Source: a virus. Taken from it: a stretch of DNA of 23,177 nucleotides. Positions 3,543 to 16,335 of this stretch are shown here, piece by piece. The DNA lies in the IMG/VR virus record IMGVR_UViG_3300025000_000427, positions 1 to 23,177 of that record; one strand, given 5' to 3'. Each line of letters starts with the position of its first letter. The stretch's first letter is position 1. The position numbers and the translations under genes are program-made. Under the pieces are notes generated by a model, which saw only the letters and a program-made list of their open reading frames with translations, did no database searches and had not been told where the DNA came from.

Positions 3543-4363
3543 TGAAACGAAACCTACCTTTAGCATATAACGGGCTGCCACTGTCCGGAATAAAATACGA
3601 CCTGTCACCAAAGGCGCTTGAGAACTGGAACCCGGCAATCAAGGCCGCTGAGTCTGACAACACGATCAGCATATTCGATGTTATCGGACAGGACTATTGG
3701 ACAGGCGAGGGTGTCACAGCAAAGAGGATTGCCGGGGCACTTCGTGCAATAGGGGACAAGGACGTAACTGTACTGGTCAACTCTCCAGGCGGCGACATGT
3801 TCGAAGGGCTGGCAATATACAACCTACTGCGAGAGCATAAGGGGGAAGTCACCGTGAAAGTTTTGGGGCTCGCCGCTTCCGCTGCTTCAGTAATCGCCAT
3901 GGCCGGTGACAACATCCAGGTGGCGCGCGCTGGCTTCCTGATGGTTCACAATGCATGGATACTTGTGGCTGGCAACCGTCACGATATGCGGGATTACGCC
4001 GATTACTTGGAACCGTTTGACCGCTCTATGGCGGACCTTTATTCCGCACGTACCGGCATCGAGTTCAAATCCATGCAGAAAATAATGGATGCTGAAAGCT
4101 GGATAGGCGGCAGTGATGCGGTTGAACAGGGTTTTGCAGACGCACTGTTACCCTCCGACCAGATACAGATTGATGAAAACAGTAACGCCCGTGCTGCGGT
4201 TAAACTCGATATCGCTCTTGCAAAAGCTGGAATGCCAAGATCAGAACGCAAGAAATTGCTTGCTGAATATAAGGCCGTCAAGCCTTGCGCTGATGGTAAC
4301 GATACGCCTTGCGCTATCTCGTTTGAAGATGAAATGTACGAATTACGTTGTCTCTGTTTTTAA
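3542..4363 (+). CDS. Head maturation protease, ClpP-like (S14 family)
   Basis: This 273-aa serine protease should cleave the delta domain from the major capsid protein during prohead maturation. ClpP-fold motifs are clear: VNSPGGDMFEGLAIYN (about 79-94), the nucleophile region GLAASAASVIAMAGD with Ser113 as the likely catalytic serine, and MVHNAW with His136. By alignment with ClpP the third catalytic position falls at D183/E185 in MDAESWIGG. AAVEQGFAD-type residues (192-200) correspond to the ClpP AVEYGLVD segment. The start has a perfect AGGAGG eight bases upstream. The gene lies directly between portal and capsid, the standard HK97 order. The C-terminus is unusually cysteine-rich (CADG, PCAI, LRCLCF) and its role is unknown. 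Confidence 0.94.
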   Translation: MKRNLPLAYNGLPLSGIKYDLSPKALENWNPAIKAAESDNTISIFDVIGQDYWTGEGVTAKRIAGALRAIGDKDVTVLVNSPGGDMFEGLAIYNLLREHKGEVTVKVLGLAASAASVIAMAGDNIQVARAGFLMVHNAWILVAGNRHDMRDYADYLEPFDRSMADLYSARTGIEFKSMQKIMDAESWIGGSDAVEQGFADALLPSDQIQIDENSNARAAVKLDIALAKAGMPRSERKKLLAEYKAVKPCADGNDTPCAISFEDEMYELRCLCF

Positions 4364-4386
4364 TCCACCATTCAAAGGAGTATCCC

Positions 4387-5577
4387 ATGGCAATCGAAGA
4401 AGAAGTCAAAGAAGTCAAAACCCTGCTTAAGGACGTGAACGACAAACTCAAAGCGTCCGCAGAAGAAGCTCAGAAGCAGATTAACCTGCATTCTGAAATG
4501 TCTCAGGAAACAAAAGCCAGCGTTGACAAGCTCCTGATTACCCAGGGCGAACTGAATGCCCGCCTTATGGCAGCTGAACAGCTCATGGCGAAAATGGAAA
4601 CACAGGGGCAGGGCCGCAACGAACTGCCGAAAACGATGGGGCAAACTGTTATTGAGTCCGATGGATTCATTAACTTCTCAGGCAAAGGTACTTTCACCAT
4701 CCCGGTAAAAAACGCCATTACCTCACTGGTCGGTTCCGCCGGCACACTGATTGAACCGCAGAAACTGGGCTTTATCTCCGCCGGTATGCAGCGACTGACC
4801 GTCCGCGACCTGCTCAATTGGGGACGCACTACTTCCAACTCGCTGGAGTACGTCCGTGAAACCGGATTCACTAACAACGCCGATGTAGTTTCCGAGAACC
4901 CGACGAACGACAAGCCGGAATCTACCATCTCTTTTGAGCTGGATTCGGCGCCGGTCGCGACCATCGCCCACTGGATTAACGCATCGAAACAGGTGCTCGC
5001 TGATGCCGCCATGTTGGCATCCTATATCGATGGGCGCTTGCGCTATGGCCTGAAGCTGAAAGAAGAACTCCAGCTGTTGAAAGGTTCTGGCGTCGGGCTC
5101 AACATTACAGGCCTTATCACCGCCGCCACTGCATACGCGAACCCTGGCGTGACTGTGCAGGTTGAAACCGCAATTGACCGACTCCGGCTGGCGATGCTGC
5201 AGGTAACTCTGGCTGAGTATGAGGCCGATGGTATTGTACTGTCTCCCATCGACTGGTGCCAGATCGAACTGACCAAGACCACAACCAACGAATACCTGTT
5301 CACATCTCCTACTGGCATGGTAGTTCCTGGCCTATGGGGACGTCCAGTTGTGTCTTCTCAGTCCATGACCGCCGGAGATTTCCTTGTCGGTGCTTTCGGC
5401 ATGGCCGCTCAGGGATGGGATCGTGAAGATGTCAACGTCACTGTCTCCACCGAAAACAAGGATAATTTTGTGAAGAACATGGTCACCATCCTCTGCGAGG
5501 AGCGCGTCGGCTTGACCATCTTCCGGCCGGAAGCGCTTATCACTGGCGACTTCGATGGGCTTCCTGCATCGGCGTAG
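4387..5577 (+). CDS. Major capsid protein, HK97 fold
   Basis: This 396-aa protein forms the icosahedral shell. Residues 1 to about 75 are a charged, heptad-like coiled coil (EEEVKEVKTLLKDVNDKL...), the expected scaffolding delta domain that the upstream protease removes. After it come HK97-fold segments including TLIEPQ, RDLLNWGRT, ASKQVLADA, LKLKEELQLLKG, and the late VLSPIDW and PEALITGDF regions. The ATG at 4387 follows AAAGGAG at 6 bases, so it is preferred over an in-frame TTG at 4348 that would overlap the protease. A strong terminator-like hairpin follows the stop codon, which fits a highly expressed gene ending a transcription unit. Confidence 0.95.
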   Translation: MAIEEEVKEVKTLLKDVNDKLKASAEEAQKQINLHSEMSQETKASVDKLLITQGELNARLMAAEQLMAKMETQGQGRNELPKTMGQTVIESDGFINFSGKGTFTIPVKNAITSLVGSAGTLIEPQKLGFISAGMQRLTVRDLLNWGRTTSNSLEYVRETGFTNNADVVSENPTNDKPESTISFELDSAPVATIAHWINASKQVLADAAMLASYIDGRLRYGLKLKEELQLLKGSGVGLNITGLITAATAYANPGVTVQVETAIDRLRLAMLQVTLAEYEADGIVLSPIDWCQIELTKTTTNEYLFTSPTGMVVPGLWGRPVVSSQSMTAGDFLVGAFGMAAQGWDREDVNVTVSTENKDNFVKNMVTILCEERVGLTIFRPEALITGDFDGLPASA

Positions 5578-5583
5578 TAATAG

Positions 5584-5608
5584 GGGGGAGGTTTCGGCCT
5601 CCCCCTTT
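5584..5608 (+). terminator. Rho-independent terminator after the capsid gene
   Basis: Eight perfect G/C-rich base pairs (GGGGGAGG at 5584-5591 with CCTCCCCC at 5598-5605) enclose a six-base loop TTTCGG and are followed by TTTGTTCTTT. It lies 6 bases after the capsid stop. On the opposite strand the hairpin is followed by TATTACT rather than a T-run, so it would be a weaker stop for the converging minus-strand genes. Confidence 0.85.
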
Positions 5609-5632
5609 GTTCTTTGACAATTGAAGCAGGAG

Positions 5633-5809
5633 TTATTTTCCTATGATGTCCGCAACTCTTGAACCGGCGTTCACTTCCAACTTTATCACATTGATGTAAA
5701 CTTGGGTAAGACGGGCAACTGCATTAGCTTGTTCAGGTGTAATCTTACCGCCTCTGAGGTTGGTTGTATCTTCGGTAATCATTTCAAGCATGTTTTTGAT
5801 TGTTTGCAT
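5633..5809 (-). CDS. Small hypothetical protein, last gene of minus-strand cassette 1
   Basis: A 58-aa ORF starts at the complement of 5809 with ATG preceded by AAAGGGAG at a good distance (7 bases) and ends with TAA at 5633. The protein reads MQTIKNMLEMITEDTTNLRG and continues with KITPEQANAVARL, a short helical pattern resembling small phage proteins of unknown function that carry a 'G.ITPEQA' motif. Its start overlaps the end of the preceding minus-strand gene by 26 bases, which suggests coupling. No catalytic or metal-binding residues are visible. It is probably real because of the ribosome site, coding-like composition and position, but its function is unknown. Confidence 0.65.
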   Translation of the reverse strand: MQTIKNMLEMITEDTTNLRGGKITPEQANAVARLTQVYINVIKLEVNAGSRVADIIGK

Positions 5810-6278
5810 TTTTGATCTCCCTTTTTAGTTGAATGTTAGCTCTTGCCAGCTTGATTAGTTCAGTAGTGGTTTCGTTTATGGGTATTTTAGATGATTTAGC
5901 CACATAATAATCAGCTAAGTTGACGCGACCTGCTTTTCGTGAAACCTTCTGTCGATCTTTTACTTCTTGCGCTTGGTAGTATATTGCACAATATTTTTTC
6001 ATGTATTCCTTGACTTTAGGTTTTTGCCTGTGTTCCTTTCTCCACTCTCTATCACGGGCTCTTGCTTCAGGCTTTTGTTTGTATATTTTTGTGCGCGCCT
6101 TTTTTACATCAAGGGCTCCAGGCCTTTGGAGATATATTTTTTGGCGTCCACGTGCACATTGTTTGCAATGCCCGTCTGTATAAACATTGTCCGGCGACTT
6201 GACATGACCATGCTTGCACATTGGATATCCGGATTGCCCATCAAAACCATATCTGCCTGAGTGTACGCTATGACTCAC
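5784..6278 (-). CDS. Zinc-finger protein resembling phage HNH-type accessory proteins
   Basis: This is a 164-aa basic protein. A CxxxH...CxxC cluster near residues 21-40 (CKHGH then GHCKQC) resembles the zinc-binding N-terminus of many phage HNH endonucleases. A repeat-like basic middle follows (KIYKQKPEARARDREW, KEYMKKY), then a C-terminal helix (TTELIKLARANIQLKREIK) like those found in phage-encoded DNA-binding proteins. I see no HNH catalytic motif, so nuclease activity is doubtful. The likely start is GTG at the complement of 6278-6276, which overlaps the TGA of the zinc-ribbon gene (GTGA), giving translational coupling. An ATG at 6221 is a weaker alternative. The frame stays open up to 6581, but that reading would cross the promoter and the zinc-ribbon gene, so it is rejected. 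Confidence 0.65.
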   Translation of the reverse strand: MSHSVHSGRYGFDGQSGYPMCKHGHVKSPDNVYTDGHCKQCARGRQKIYLQRPGALDVKKARTKIYKQKPEARARDREWRKEHRQKPKVKEYMKKYCAIYYQAQEVKDRQKVSRKAGRVNLADYYVAKSSKIPINETTTELIKLARANIQLKREIKNANNQKHA

Positions 6279-6376
6279 TCCTTCTGAATTACATCCAGCC
6301 GCGTTTTGCAACGTGGGCAACTCTTGGGGTCTTCCACTTTCGGCTTCCATTCGTAACTGCATTTTGGACATTTCAT
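6275..6376 (-). CDS. Tiny zinc-ribbon protein (33 aa)
   Basis: A very short ORF begins at the complement of 6376 with ATG preceded by a perfect AGGAGG and four spacer bases. The protein has two CxxC knuckles, MKCPKC (residues 3 and 6) and CPRC (20 and 23), separated by 13 residues, then KTRLD. This is the compact zinc-ribbon pattern seen in many small bacterial and phage proteins. Such proteins bind zinc and often contact nucleic acid, but no specific partner can be named. It is the first gene after a strong minus-strand promoter and its stop overlaps the GTG of the next gene. It is easily missed because of its length. Confidence 0.75.
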   Translation of the reverse strand: MKCPKCSYEWKPKVEDPKSCPRCKTRLDVIQKE

Positions 6377-6389
6377 AAAACCTCCTGTT

Positions 6390-6419
6390 TTGATTGTGTC
6401 GCACTGTTATTCCTATTAT
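6390..6419 (+). promoter_or_regulatory. Possible divergent + strand promoter
   Basis: TTGATT (6390-6395), an 18-base spacer and TATTAT (6414-6419) lie upstream of the gene at 6467. The -10 overlaps that of the minus-strand promoter, so the two would compete for polymerase. It would restart transcription after the capsid terminator. The A/T-rich background makes chance matches likely. Confidence 0.35.
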
Positions 6420-6442
6420 TACTATTTTTATTATTATGTCAA
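6413..6442 (-). promoter_or_regulatory. Sigma70-type promoter for minus-strand cassette 1
   Basis: Read on the minus strand, a perfect -35 TTGACA (complement of 6437-6442) is followed by an 18-base spacer and a -10 TAATAG (complement of 6413-6418); ATAATA one base earlier is also possible. The region is very A/T-rich, and the start codon of the zinc-ribbon gene is about 37 bases downstream. The upstream flank resembles that of the promoter at 10589-10616. Confidence 0.72.
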
Positions 6443-6466: not shown

Positions 6467-6733
6467 ATGCTTGTAACAGCTTTAAAAAGCTTTGACCACA
6501 ACGGCAGCATAAACAAGGGTCAGACATTTGACTGTTCCGAAATAGTAGCACACGGGTTGAAACGGGCAAAACTTGTAACATTTGATGATCCTAAAGCAAA
6601 TTTCCCTATGGCCGGGGCTTCACTGCCGTCTGCATCGCCTCCGGTCCCAGCCTTACAGCAGACGATTGCGAAACCGTTAGACGCTGGCGCGAATCTGAAA
6701 AAGAAACCGGGGCGCAAGAAAAAGTCGTCATAG
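6467..6733 (+). CDS. Small head-region protein of unknown function (88 aa)
   Basis: The ATG at 6467 follows AAGGGG (6452-6457) at about 9 bases. The first 45 residues (MLVTALKSFDHNGSINKGQTF...) resemble small phage head-region proteins with a 'K.F.H.G....KG..F' start and a compact beta fold. The second half is rich in Pro, Ala and Ser and ends in a lysine/arginine tail (KKKPGRKKKSS). The last 140 bases overlap, in the -1 frame, a long open frame that encodes an MptE/DUF115-like domain without a start codon. A slippery heptamer AAATTTC sits exactly where that frame opens, so ribosomes may make both this 88-aa protein and a 237-aa fusion. Confidence 0.75.
   Translation: MLVTALKSFDHNGSINKGQTFDCSEIVAHGLKRAKLVTFDDPKANFPMAGASLPSASPPVPALQQTIAKPLDAGANLKKKPGRKKKSS
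6598..6604 (+). promoter_or_regulatory. Candidate -1 ribosomal frameshift site AAATTTC
   Basis: The heptamer AAATTTC is in the correct phase (A AAT TTC) of the 6467 gene. It begins 3 bases after the TAA (6592-6594) that closes the -1 frame upstream. About six bases downstream, GCCGGGG (6611-6617) can pair with CCTCCGGT (around 6639-6646, with two G-U pairs) to form a stimulatory stem. A slip joins residue 46 of the first protein to PYGRGFTAVCIASGPSL of the second. In E. coli this heptamer class is less efficient than A-rich ones, so activity is not certain. Confidence 0.5.
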
Positions 6734-7179
6734 TCGTTAACACGACCTTTGAACTTGCGCCGTGGTCTGACATATTGTATGCAATGGATAGGAACTGGTG
6801 GGACAACTACTTTATCAAAGGCGCAAAAGATTTTGCAGGGATGAAATTAACACCGGTATCGGGTGTAAAGTGTGCCAAAAGAATAGCATTTACTCATTAC
6901 CAGAATAGCGGGGTAGGGGCAATTTCGCTGGCGGCACATTACGGGGCTGGTAGAATCATCTTACTCGGCTACGATTGCCAGAAAACAGGCGGTAAATCTC
7001 ACTGGCACGGTAATCACCCACCAGGCCTTGGTAACGCCGGCAGTATTGGCACTTGGCCGAACCAGTTTAATAAGCTGAAAAAAGATCTTTCTGGAGTTGA
7101 AATTATAAACTGCACACGCGAAACCGCTTTAACTATGTTTGAACGACAGGATTTAAATACAGCATTAAACAGGAGCTGA
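6604..7179 (+). CDS. MptE/DUF115-like domain protein, probably made as a -1 frameshift fusion
   Basis: This frame encodes about 191 residues before TGA at 7177-7179. Near its start is AVCIASGPSLTADD, a glycine-rich 'GPSL' loop followed by VVIVVNTTFELAPWSDILYAMD, then IILLGYD, SHWHGNHPPGLGN and a C-terminal EIINCTRETALTMF. This arrangement resembles DUF115/MptE-like and sialyltransferase-like (GT42-type) nucleotide-binding folds and is common among phage head-region proteins of unproven function. No ATG, GTG or TTG precedes the GPSL loop in this frame: the last stop is at 6592-6594, and the first start-like codon (TTG 6775) would delete the loop. Expression is therefore probably by frameshift at 6598-6604, giving a 237-aa fusion. 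A lost start codon is the alternative. Confidence 0.68.
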   Translation, partial: PYGRGFTAVCIASGPSLTADDCETVRRWRESEKETGAQEKVVIVVNTTFELAPWSDILYAMDRNWWDNYFIKGAKDFAGMKLTPVSGVKCAKRIAFTHYQNSGVGAISLAAHYGAGRIILLGYDCQKTGGKSHWHGNHPPGLGNAGSIGTWPNQFNKLKKDLSGVEIINCTRETALTMFERQDLNTALNRS

Positions 7180-10668: not shown

Positions 10669-12207
10669 ATGGCCGGTAAATACGATGTTGTCATATCTCT
10701 GTTGGTTTACAATCAGCTTGAAGTCACGAGAGAGTGCATCGAATCGCTGTTTGCAACATCTCAAAGCGACTTTTTGCTTGTCATTTCCGACAATAAATCC
10801 CGAAGCGAGACCGCTGATTATCTCAAATCGGTTGCAGATGATCATGCAAACGTGGTTTACGTCCGCAACGATGAAAACCTTGGCTTTATAGGCGCTCATA
10901 ACGCCATATATGCCGCTTATCGGGATTTGGCCGAGAACTTCTGTGTACTGAATAACGACCTGATCTTCAAGACCGATGGATGGGATAACAGGTTTTTGCA
11001 GGCTCTTGAATCAAACGCGAACCTGGCACAGGTGGGGCCGGTTCAAGTTCATGGGTACATCAACGCAAAAGGGATTGGCGTGCCGAGGCCGATCAGAAGC
11101 AATCCGCCTGAATACATCGGGGGATCGTGCTTTATTGCCAAGGTCGCGGCGGTTGGCGAAAAGCTTTTTGAAGATAAGTATATGAAGTTTGCATTTTGTG
11201 AAGATGCTGACTTATCATTCCGACTCAGGGCTGCAGGCATGAAGATTGCCGAGATACCCGGTATTAATATCCACCACAAACACCACGTATCCTTCAAGAA
11301 CGAAAAGCTTGACTTCGATTTCAAAAAACAGGAACTCGCAAATCAGAGATTTCTGATTGACCGCTGGCAGAAATATATCCGGCTGAGAAATTTCGCCCCT
11401 CTCCATATCCTGATTATCCGCACTCGGGCGCTTGGCGACTCATTCATGGCTGAGCCGATAGCGCGGGAGCTGTTGAATAAATACCCTGGCGCGCATGTGT
11501 ATATCCAAACAGCCTGCCCTGAATGGTTCACCCCTTGCGATTACATCAAGGAATGCGGGCCAAATCTCAGGGCAAAACGGAAATATGATATTGTGATCGA
11601 TCTTGATATGGCATATGAGCGCAACCCGAAGATGCACGTTGTCGACGCCTATGCCAATGCGGCGATGGTGACACTTGATGACGACAAACGGACGCCTCAA
11701 TATCTGGGTGCGAAACGTATCCGGATAGGCAGGAAAACAGCCGTTATCAACGCAGAAGGATCATGGGATAGCCGACAATGGCCGCTTGAGCGTATCAGGG
11801 GTTTTGCAGCATACCTGAAGGGGCGCGGTTACCATGTTAAAGAAGTCGGCAGGACTCAGGCGCTTTACACCGGTGTCGGCGAAAATCTGATTGGTGGGAG
11901 GAATCTTGCCGGTATCAACCAGGTAATAGCCGATGCTGATTTGTATTTCGGGATGGACGGGGGGCTGGCTCATTTTGCCCAGGCAATGGGGACTCGTTGC
12001 TTTCTGATATTCGGATGCACGAATCCTGAATACAGGGTGCATAACGGCGCAGATGTAAAAGCTGTATGGCGTGGGGATCTTCCTTGTTCAGGGTGTCATC
12101 ACGAAGGTCCGCCTAAAACGTTCACCGCTTGCAAAACAGGCAACCATGAATGCTTGACGGGTATCACCGTTGATGAGGTTATAGAAAAATTTGAGGCATG
12201 GATATGA
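10669..12207 (+). CDS. Two-domain glycosyltransferase, GT2 fused to GT9
   Basis: This 512-aa protein joins two sugar-transfer domains. Residues 5-235 are GT2-like (GT-A fold): VVISLLVYNQLEVTRECIESL, ISDNKS, NENLGF-type NDENLGFIGAHN (67-78), the metal-binding-like NNDLIF (95-100), GGSCFIAK (151-158) and the catalytic-type CEDADLSFRL (E178, D179). Residues 245-512 resemble GT9 heptosyltransferases: ILIIRTRALGDSFM (247-260) with the conserved GD, then GMDGGLAHFAQAMG (428-441), FGCTNP, and a Cys-rich end (CSGC at 473-476, C488, C495). The ATG follows GAGGGG. It is the first gene of a sugar and methyl-transfer group. Donor and acceptor sugars cannot be deduced. Confidence 0.88.
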   Translation: MAGKYDVVISLLVYNQLEVTRECIESLFATSQSDFLLVISDNKSRSETADYLKSVADDHANVVYVRNDENLGFIGAHNAIYAAYRDLAENFCVLNNDLIFKTDGWDNRFLQALESNANLAQVGPVQVHGYINAKGIGVPRPIRSNPPEYIGGSCFIAKVAAVGEKLFEDKYMKFAFCEDADLSFRLRAAGMKIAEIPGINIHHKHHVSFKNEKLDFDFKKQELANQRFLIDRWQKYIRLRNFAPLHILIIRTRALGDSFMAEPIARELLNKYPGAHVYIQTACPEWFTPCDYIKECGPNLRAKRKYDIVIDLDMAYERNPKMHVVDAYANAAMVTLDDDKRTPQYLGAKRIRIGRKTAVINAEGSWDSRQWPLERIRGFAAYLKGRGYHVKEVGRTQALYTGVGENLIGGRNLAGINQVIADADLYFGMDGGLAHFAQAMGTRCFLIFGCTNPEYRVHNGADVKAVWRGDLPCSGCHHEGPPKTFTACKTGNHECLTGITVDEVIEKFEAWI

Positions 12208-12920
12208 AGAAGACATTTCAATATTTTCCGGAGGAGAGAATGGTAGCGGTAAAAAATGGCAATCCAGACCTAGTTAAAATAGGGTATGAAGAGCACATGT
12301 TTAACGATGATTACTGGCTGTATTCAGACGGCGTAAATCCGGCAAGGATCAACAAAAGTGCTCACCAATTGATATGTTATTTCAAAGATTTATTCTCAAT
12401 TACAGGCACAGTCACAGATAAATATATCATCGGAGATATTGGTGCTGGCGCAGGGAGCATGATTCAGCAACTTCATAATGCAGGTTATTCTGCGGGAGGG
12501 TGCGAATATTCCGAGTCAGGGCGAAGGCTTGCCAAGGAAAGGTTTAGTATTGATTTAGAGTTTTGTGATCTGAGAACTAGATTGAATTACCCAGACAATC
12601 ATTTTGACTGGTCATATTGCGTCGGTGTCCTGTCAATGATACCGGACGGTTTCATGGAGAACGCTGTCCGGGAGTTGTTGAGGATTACAAGATATGGAGT
12701 TTTGGTCAACGTAGGAGCCGACATTGCCAACAACAAAGTGGATAGGAGAGGTAACCCGCACCATCTAACGCCGATCAATAGCGCTGGAATGTGGAAATTA
12801 ATCCACGGAATTGGCGGGTATGACTGGACTTCAATCCAGCCGCCGCAAAAAAACAAGTACGGGATAGGGGTGTGCAACGAATTCGCGTGCCTAATCGGGA
12901 AAACGCCTTGGCCATTCTAA
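12204..12920 (+). CDS. Class I SAM-dependent methyltransferase
   Basis: This 238-aa protein has the Rossmann-fold methyltransferase pattern: motif I IIGDIGAGAGSM (75-86), an acidic residue at the end of strand 2 (GGCEYSE, E101), FCDLRTRLNYPDNHFDWSYCVGVL (120-143), and RELLRITRYGVLVNVG after it. I chose the ATG at 12204, which forms an ATGA overlap with the glycosyltransferase stop and has GAGG 7 bases upstream. An ATG at 12198 would place the ribosome site only one base away. The gene appears more A/T-rich than its neighbours, which may reflect separate origin. Co-transcription with glycosyltransferases suggests methylation of a sugar, but a small molecule or protein substrate is possible. 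Confidence 0.85.
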   Translation: MKKTFQYFPEERMVAVKNGNPDLVKIGYEEHMFNDDYWLYSDGVNPARINKSAHQLICYFKDLFSITGTVTDKYIIGDIGAGAGSMIQQLHNAGYSAGGCEYSESGRRLAKERFSIDLEFCDLRTRLNYPDNHFDWSYCVGVLSMIPDGFMENAVRELLRITRYGVLVNVGADIANNKVDRRGNPHHLTPINSAGMWKLIHGIGGYDWTSIQPPQKNKYGIGVCNEFACLIGKTPWPF

Positions 12921-12930
12921 TAGAGGTAAC

Positions 12931-13416
12931 ATGAGCGAGACCGCAAAACATAGATCGTTATTCCTGCCATACTGCATCGGCAACGGCCTTGATATCGGTT
13001 ATGGTGGCGATCCTATCGTTGAGACAGCCATAACCCTTGACCAGGCGGACCGGTATAGCTTTGAAGGCGATAAGCCACAGAACATCACTGCCGACGCCTG
13101 CAGCCTGTATATGTTTGCTGATAATTCCCTTGATTATGTGTATTCCTCACACTGTATCGAAGATTTCAGGCAAACGGCGGGGGTGCTACAAGAATGGGTC
13201 AGGGTAATAAAACCCGGCGGATTCCTGTGCCTATTGTTCCCTGATGAGCGAGTTTACAGGGAGAAATCCAAGACCCCGAATATTGCGCACGTCTATGATG
13301 ATTTCGGCATGGGATTTGTGATTGATCGACTGCCGGCGGATGTTGATATTGTGGTTTCGCTGGAACTATTTGAAAACGATGATTACAATTGTGCGCTGGT
13401 GTTACAAAAATGCTAG
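12931..13416 (+). CDS. Class I SAM-dependent methyltransferase, short form
   Basis: This 161-aa protein resembles Methyltransf_11-type enzymes: GNGLDIGYGGDP (17-28) as the SAM-binding loop, ADACSLYMFADNSLDYVYSSHCIEDF as strands 3-4 with the HxxED motif, then EWVRVIKPGGFLCLLFPDE. It is shorter than usual and the C-terminal cap is small. The ATG follows GAGG at 4 bases. Its last codons overlap the start of the next gene (ATGCTAG). The same pattern occurs in glycan-cluster methyltransferases, which fits its neighbours. The substrate cannot be inferred. Confidence 0.85.
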   Translation: MSETAKHRSLFLPYCIGNGLDIGYGGDPIVETAITLDQADRYSFEGDKPQNITADACSLYMFADNSLDYVYSSHCIEDFRQTAGVLQEWVRVIKPGGFLCLLFPDERVYREKSKTPNIAHVYDDFGMGFVIDRLPADVDIVVSLELFENDDYNCALVLQKC

Positions 13417-14087
13417 TGTTGCTGACAGCCACAGGGATGAGGCCGGAAGCGTGGGCAATCTGCGAACGGCTGATGATGGCGCAAACGTTCACGGGGCCGG
13501 TGCGGTGGATCATCGTGGATGATGGGGAAACACCGCAGCCGATAACCTTCCGACGCGAAAACTGGATTATCAATCTGATTTGTCCTGAACCAGTATGGCA
13601 ACCAGGGCAGAATACACAGGCGCGCAACCTGATGGCGGGACTTGAACGCGTAAGGGATTATGAACGGCTTGTGATTATCGAAGATGATGATTTTTATGGA
13701 CCGGAATACCTTGCTGACGTTGACAACTGGCTAAAAACTGCTGACTTGGTGGGCGAACCAATGGCGCGTTATTTCAACGTGGCAACCGGGACCGGCAAGC
13801 AGCTGCAAAACAATACTCATTGCAGCCTGTGCAGCACGGCAGTGAAGGGGCCGGGGCTTGTGGCCTTCCGTCAAGCGGTAGCCAAACACAAAAAGTTCAT
13901 CGACCTGGAACTATGGCGCACGTTCAGGGGCAAAAAAATCATCTCCAATACCCGGCACGTTGTAGGAATAAAGGGTTTGCCGGGGCGGGGTGGCATCGGT
14001 TGCGGCCACAGAATGACCGGTGGCGCTCAGTCAATCGGCATGTTGCGGGAGTGGATAGGGGATGCCGCGGGAATTTACGGGTACTGA
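13410..14087 (+). CDS. GT-A-fold glycosyltransferase-like protein
   Basis: This 225-aa protein opens with MLVLLTATGMRPEAWAICERLM and continues with the strand VRWIIVDDGE (31-40). Then NTQARNLMAGLERV (68-81) leads to LVIIEDDDFYGPEYL (87-101), whose EDDD is the expected metal/nucleotide-sugar-binding DxD of GT-A enzymes. The C-terminal GIKGLPGRGGIGCGHR resembles an acceptor loop. The start ATG overlaps the preceding stop, and no clear ribosome site is present, so translation is probably coupled. Sequence similarity to named glycosyltransferase families is distant. The role is inferred from the DxD-like motif and from the neighbours. Confidence 0.72.
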   Translation: MLVLLTATGMRPEAWAICERLMMAQTFTGPVRWIIVDDGETPQPITFRRENWIINLICPEPVWQPGQNTQARNLMAGLERVRDYERLVIIEDDDFYGPEYLADVDNWLKTADLVGEPMARYFNVATGTGKQLQNNTHCSLCSTAVKGPGLVAFRQAVAKHKKFIDLELWRTFRGKKIISNTRHVVGIKGLPGRGGIGCGHRMTGGAQSIGMLREWIGDAAGIYGY

Positions 14088-15963: not shown

Positions 15964-15984
15964 ACAACATCAACCGGGGGAGTG

Positions 15985-16335
15985 ATGCAACTCAACATCG
16001 AAAGTCTCAAAACCATAGGCGCATTTACCGGCGCTCCTGTTGAAAAGCAAATCAAATGGAAGCAAGGCGACGAAGAACACACGGCAACCGTTTTTATCCG
16101 GCCGCTCTCCTACAAATCAACGGTGTCCGACCTGCAGGCCGTGAACGACAAGAAAGACCCGGTAGCAACGCGGATTGCATGCAGCGTGTGCGACGAAACC
16201 GGCAAGCCGATATTTACCGCTGATGATATTACCGGCGATGCAGATCCCGAGCGCGGGGCGCTGGACGGCAACCTGGCAATGGCACTGCTTGCTGCAATCG
16301 CAGAGGTGAACTATCTGGGAAAGCCGACGAGCTGA
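15985..16335 (+). CDS. Tail assembly chaperone (lambda gpG-like)
   Basis: This 116-aa protein (starting MQLNIESLKTIGAF) is the gpG-like chaperone that coats the tape measure during tail assembly. It contains KQIKWKQGDEEHTATVFIRPLSYKS, a common tail-chaperone segment, then DKKDPVATRIACSVCDETGKPIF and ALDGNLAMALLAAIAEVN. The ATG has GGGGGAG 4 bases upstream; a GTG just before it (15982) is the alternative. Near the end lies GGGAAAG (16317-16323) in the phase needed for -1 frameshifting, giving a G-T fusion, as in lambda. The normal stop is TGA at 16333-16335. Confidence 0.9.
   Translation: MQLNIESLKTIGAFTGAPVEKQIKWKQGDEEHTATVFIRPLSYKSTVSDLQAVNDKKDPVATRIACSVCDETGKPIFTADDITGDADPERGALDGNLAMALLAAIAEVNYLGKPTS
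16317..16323 (+). promoter_or_regulatory. -1 ribosomal frameshift site GGGAAAG
   Basis: The heptamer GGGAAAG is in phase (G GGA AAG) at the end of the gpG-like gene, 9 bases before its stop. Slippage joins residue 113 to the open -1 frame. It is the same heptamer as in lambda G/GT (established knowledge). Confidence 0.9.

Follow-up and report, generated by a model that had tools for sequence, protein, structure and literature searches.

A conserved candidate -1 ribosomal frameshift joining a small capsid-adjacent phage protein to a Maf/MptE-like domain

Ribosomal -1 frameshifting is an established feature of phage head genes in T7/T3 (gene 10), Lactobacillus phage A2, A118, A500 and PSA (PMC5009743), and with these precedents the view of the first-pass annotation that a frameshift in the head module would be unusual does not hold. 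In T7/T3 gene 10 (10A/10B), A2 and A118/A500 a -1 shift gives rise to a minor, C-terminally extended protein of the structural module, as we propose for the locus described here. The extended partner differs: in T7/T3, A2 and the Listeria phages it is the coat protein itself, to which an Ig-like domain is added in T3 and A2 (PMC5009743), whereas here a small accessory protein would be extended by a Maf/sialyltransferase-fold domain and ~130 bases would be dual-coded. The gpG/gpGT pair of lambda likewise depends on a -1 shift at a slippery heptamer in a structural operon; it differs in gene and products and has no sequence relation to the present locus. On the side of the domain, the closest described relatives are orf6.5/orf7 of Pseudomonas phage D3, a member of the family with CCCAAAG in phase, and pmgO of P1, a standalone homologue with its own ATG that is located elsewhere.

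The window, which is the whole 23,177 bases of IMG/VR virus record IMGVR_UViG_3300025000_000427, contains two overlapping frames downstream of a capsid gene that supplies their head-module context. The features concerned are:

4348 to 5577, plus strand: HK97-type major capsid protein (Pfam Phage_capsid 1e-53, phrog_10 5e-73)
6467 to 6733, plus strand: zero-frame gene of 88 aa, a folded N-domain of ~40 aa followed by a disordered K-rich tail
6592 to 6594, plus strand: TAA, the final -1-frame stop 5' of the slip site
6598 to 6604, plus strand: A_AAT_TTC slippery heptamer, preferred slip site, in phase and ~6 nt from the stem as in relatives
6601 to 6607, plus strand: T_TTC_CCT, overlapping alternative in-phase heptamer that includes the C_CCN of 45/48 loci
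6604 to 7179, plus strand: Maf/GT42/MptE-like domain of 191 aa in the -1 frame, predicted to be entered via frameshift
6607 to 6733, plus strand: overlap coding in two frames
6610 to 6617, plus strand: 5' arm of the predicted stimulatory hairpin (the family stem reaches 6621)
6639 to 6646, plus strand: 3' arm of the predicted stimulatory hairpin (family stem 6635-6646)

The positions given in the first-pass annotation for both frames, the TAA and AAATTTC all check, including the K-rich end of the 88-aa zero frame at 6733; the -1 frame (frame 1, MptE/DUF115-like) is open from 6595 to 7179, directly after the TAA. Its label of head-region protein stands in the sense of an accessory protein whose gene follows that of the capsid, and not as a demonstrated virion component. 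Two other regions of the window can be recorded here. Positions 10669-14087, inside the head-tail module, hold a GT2-GT9 fusion, two methyltransferases and one further ORF without assignment, a gene set that suggests modification of the phage's own sugars or of those of the host. The window also has its own copy of the lambda-type motif: close to the end of the tail assembly chaperone gene (15982-16335, Pfam Phage_TAC_13, 3e-36), G_GGA_AAG (GGGAAAG, 16317-16323) lies in phase, and beyond it the -1 frame stays open in the direction of the tape measure gene (16625). This is probably an ordinary chaperone site and the first candidate of the earlier reader.

We consider it highly probable (about 0.92), from comparison of sequences, that a programmed -1 ribosomal frameshift joins the small protein to the Maf/MptE-like domain, as the first-pass annotation had proposed. 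Most ribosomes would translate the entire zero frame into the 88-aa protein, with its folded N-domain and basic disordered tail. With the help of a hairpin that begins ~six bases downstream of the site, a fraction would slip back one base, at A_AAT_TTC or at T_TTC_CCT, which overlaps it, and continue in the -1 frame to give a 237-aa protein (46 zero-frame and 191 -1-frame residues) in which the N-domain is followed by the Maf/sialyltransferase/MptE fold. The comparative support comes from the phase of the two frames, the missing starts, the enrichment of slippery motifs, a covarying hairpin and a natural in-frame fusion; the slippage itself, its rate and the role of the protein are what we infer.

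Loci with the -1 domain were gathered from 75 phage records, IMG/VR contigs and 28 GTDB genome loci (mostly Proteobacteria), and removal of near-duplicates left 93 non-redundant loci. In 74 of these the domain frame is in the -1 phase to an upstream small ORF, which is beyond chance and answers the earlier question of whether the phase relation is conserved. An N-domain profile built from the small ORFs matched in the zero frame, in matching phase, at 73 of the 74 overlap loci; site and phase are both conserved among these diverged homologues, as expected for a programmed -1 frameshift. The remaining 19 loci comprise 17 standalone genes with no N-domain nearby, one in-frame fusion (L137) and one pair of separate ORFs (L208). 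A homologue of the HK97-type window capsid protein is encoded upstream, nearly always directly, in 71/74 overlap loci and in just 2/19 of the others, L137 and L208. Thus, in these data, the domain is always coupled somehow to the N-domain where a capsid gene precedes. In the window itself an opposite-strand insert (~5590-6430) separates the capsid gene from the small ORF; its ORFs are a 33-aa zinc-ribbon (MKCPKCSYEWKPKVEDPKSCPRCK...) and a lysine-rich ORF for which no family match was found. The insert is absent from the relative L008, since the capsid ORF there ends 222 bases before the conserved GPSL loop of the domain. As a separate observation, the Maf-like frame runs ~300-450 residues further in L021, L024, L027, L065, L089-L092 and L094; in L091 this extension matches phrog_6804, and in L089 it has a weak match to a putative glycosyltransferase family.

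Seen in the window alone, one gene split by an error of sequencing or assembly, or by decay into a pseudogene, would look alike, and a one-base error had been named at the outset as an alternative. The arrangement is shared by 74 diverged loci, including the isolated phages D3, 5399 and Psp6 and sequenced bacterial genomes, and a one-base error is therefore excluded. In 10 pairs of relatives, moreover, substitutions ahead of the slip site fall preferentially on third positions of the zero frame, and those past the zero-frame stop on third positions of the -1 frame; the rate at -1-frame third positions is 0.171 in the overlap compared to 0.394 downstream. Error or decay is thus rejected on grounds of conservation, with only a negligible probability left to it.

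The -1 frame of the window contains no ATG, GTG or TTG before the TTG at 6775, well past the GPSL loop at 6640, in agreement with the earlier remark that no start precedes this loop. Between the TAA at 6592 and GPSL there is no ATT, ATA or CTG in this frame either, and the sole near-cognate codon is an ATC inside the first beta-strand. Because this strand sits just before GPSL, a later start would destroy the fold of the domain. An internal start in the window was rejected, there being no start codon ahead of the loop. Relatives are similar, in that 68/76 overlapping homologues lack any ATG, GTG or TTG within 150 nt before GPSL, and a normal ATG at this spot, which the first-pass annotation would have counted against its reading, is not the rule among them. 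Translation of the Maf-like gene on its own, by reinitiation or from a non-canonical start inside the small ORF, draws on the standalone versions with their own ATG (PAJU2, P1 pmgO, L112, L113 and L115), on L208 with its two separate genes and normal ATG, and on D3-type loci, where a GTG or TTG at -63 in the domain frame is conceivably a start. However, it predicts neither a fixed phase nor phased heptamers, and given the missing start codons in the window and in most overlap loci we regard it as highly improbable.

Slippery motifs are found where the frameshift would need them. AAATTTC at 6598-6604 is in the exact slippage phase reported for it, with a zero-frame reading of A_AAT_TTC, and we favor it as the slip site of the window because of its six-base spacing to the stem; a slip at 6601-6607 would produce the identical 237-aa protein. 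In-phase X_XXZ_ZZN heptamers occur in 40/74 overlap loci versus 5 and 7 in the other phases, and codon-order shuffles placed one in 11.6 +/- 2.9 loci (maximum 22). When shifty tetramers are counted as well, 73/74 overlap loci have an in-phase motif. Among the first 48 non-redundant overlap loci, 47 carry an in-phase homotriplet 33-48 bases before GPSL, compared to 22 and 12 for the other phases. The heptamer types include C_CC.A_AAG (D3 type), C_CC.T_TTG, A_AA.C_CCT, G_GG.A_AAA, A_AA.T_TTC and G_GG.A_AAG. Many other loci have a bare C_CCT or C_CCC at the site, and nearly all of the 34 overlap loci without a heptamer have a tetramer only, such as C_CCT.

Proline codons at the slip site are CCT (29), CCC (10) and CCA (6), always preceded by C, and CCA is mostly found within C_CC.A_AAG. 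CCG, the commonest proline codon elsewhere in these ORFs, never occurs there. These preferences agree with efficiencies measured in E. coli, where C_CC.U and C_CC.C are equivalent and exceed C_CC.A and C_CC.G, C_CC.A_AAG is the best heptamer and reaches 54% with the IS3 pseudoknot, R_RR.U_UU.Y is a favorable class, and a tetramer such as C_CCT stays well under 6% even with a pseudoknot (PMC4066793). The -1 frame has a TGA immediately 5' of the site in L023, L027, L030 and L092, so the shift must fall at or after that codon. There are loci in which the slip site is off the usual place (L123, L127, L128, L129, L135, L150, L154, L155 and L207), and for L128, L129, L154 and L207 no obvious strong site was seen near the usual position; several off-place loci have heptamers (GGGAAAA, CCCAAAA, AAAAAAC) 80-100 bases upstream of GPSL and others tetramers only. 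A change of frame by transcriptional slippage, away from the ribosome, would result in the same fusion protein. Most sites lack a long run of identical bases (AAATTTCCC, CCCAAAG, GACCCT), though, and the strict X_XXZ_ZZN phase is in keeping with tRNA slippage, as are the codon preference and the spacing of the hairpin; we take the transcriptional route to be very improbable.

The possible stem that had been suggested about six bases past the heptamer can form, starting at 6610, six bases after 6604. In most loci GGCCGCTGGCGA...TCGCCAGCGGCC or a variant is located ~six bases past the A-site codon; in the window GGCCGGGG pairs with CTCCGGTC, one pair having changed from C-G to G-C, and the hairpins of D3-type loci are weaker. 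As a single sequence, the window hairpin (-16.5 kcal/mol) does not exceed its shuffles in stability (z = -0.1), and the single-sequence mean z is non-discriminating between overlap loci (-1.35) and standalone loci (-0.90). Comparison across loci is more informative. The covariation score is 0.168, above both controls (0.114 in shuffles, <=0.073 when slid), and five pairs are altered on both sides, as was seen in 2/500 shuffles. Pairing of the arms of each locus with one another scored -19.87 versus -18.99 +/- 0.27 when arms were swapped among loci (0/200 as good), and arm pairing is greater in overlap than in standalone loci (p = 1.7e-4). L017 and L018 retain CCGCTGG..CCAGCGG although both of their proteins read the stem in another phase, and in L101, L102 and L095 a changed third base in the glycine codon of GPSL has its counterpart 34 bases upstream. 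Part of this covariation reflects protein constraint, because dual coding also constrains the hairpin bases. The comparison points to a stimulatory structure at 5-9 nt past the slip site, which in the window alone is weak.

Fused versions of two parts are classical comparative support for a functional frameshift product. In L137 a single in-frame ORF of 264 aa (1291-2085), right after the capsid ORF, contains the N-domain and the Maf-like domain, and the zero-frame tail has been lost; its N-domain is 51% identical to the zero-frame ORF of L100 (E 9e-16). The L137 sequence was found in contigs from two samples, possibly of one virus. In L208 the N-domain and the Maf-like domain are instead encoded as two separate genes. 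Together, the fused and the split version strongly suggest that the fusion is the frameshift product.

AlphaFold2 models of the two products suggest a folded N-domain and a well-formed extension. The 88-aa protein has a pLDDT of ~92 for residues 1-40 and of 50-60 afterwards, consistent with disorder, and the 191-aa -1 domain has a pLDDT of 91.8 and a pTM of 0.90, with the first strand starting six residues in. The earlier MptE/DUF115-like assignment is borne out structurally: the VIA Z of the modeled domain is 15.5 to Maf (5mu5), of the Maf (DUF115) flagellin glycosyltransferases, ~12 to the GT42 enzymes CstI/CstII (12.2 for 2p2v) and 11.2 to archaeal HPPK (8sd5). By sequence it is a distant MptE-like relative and not a Pfam member, scoring 18 bits against a gathering cut-off of 34.6 for MptE-like PF01973, and a search of PDB sequences with the family profile gave no match. 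It matches phrog_4603 (E 7e-56, profile positions 1-175 of 178), whose name, alpha-2,3-sialyltransferase, comes from annotation and not from a functional test. At ~190 aa the phage domain is smaller than Maf and Cst, and it possesses an HWHG(D/N)HP motif of its own. The GPSL loop, which binds nucleotide in the known Maf/Cst enzymes, is conserved in it. The N-domain has no significant fold match in the PDB, the best weak ones being ribosomal L9 N-domain-like folds and B. subtilis YqbF; in BFVD it resembles small, mostly uncharacterized phage proteins with E above 0.001, one of them annotated DUF7210.

From its position, the shared N-domain and the Maf-like fold, the fusion would most likely serve to anchor a glycosyltransferase-like domain, in substoichiometric amount, on the head by means of the N-domain. 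More specifically, and only tentatively, a widespread group of tailed phages may use the conserved -1 frameshift to tether a protein glycosyltransferase of nonulosonate type, in a few copies, to a small protein associated with the capsid. It is also possible, if doubtful, that the frameshift is real and that the short protein is what matters, the fusion setting its level or acting as a regulator and not as a head-attached glycosyltransferase-like protein. In keeping with this, the zero-frame tail is kept open, for which the mean chance is 0.20 per locus when the -1 protein is recoded synonymously. On the other hand, the -1 domain is strongly conserved, with 19 invariant residues in 52 sequences, and L137 keeps the domain as a fusion while losing the tail of the short protein.

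The annotated start of D3 orf7 (L002 1094-1552) falls after the GPSL loop, so that the loop and the first strand are lost, and the D3 fusion went unrecognized because orf7 was annotated as a separate gene with this late start. The true reading probably begins in orf6.5 and frameshifts at CCCAAAG. The annotation of D3 and of the relatives checked shows separate genes or is only partial, and in several relatives one or both ORFs are unannotated. Among the papers covered by our literature search (GeneTack, PRFect, D3, PmgO) none describes this family, and the conserved frameshift is apparently an undescribed use of a known mechanism.

Under the frameshift reading, what stands beside the capsid gene as one or two hypothetical genes, in D3-like phages and in many others of Proteobacteria, is a single frameshifted gene, and annotations would be corrected accordingly, including the truncated orf7 of the long-studied phage D3. 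The spread of slippery motifs at one homologous site (CCCAAAG, AAACCCT, CCCTTTG, GGGAAAA, AAATTTC and bare C_CCT), together with the fused and split end states, makes a good set for the study of how frameshift signals evolve under dual coding. The finding also raises the question of whether the head contains a minor sugar-transferase-like protein. If the tethering is true, the virion or an assembly intermediate would carry its own glycosylating enzyme, modifying the phage particle or the host surface.
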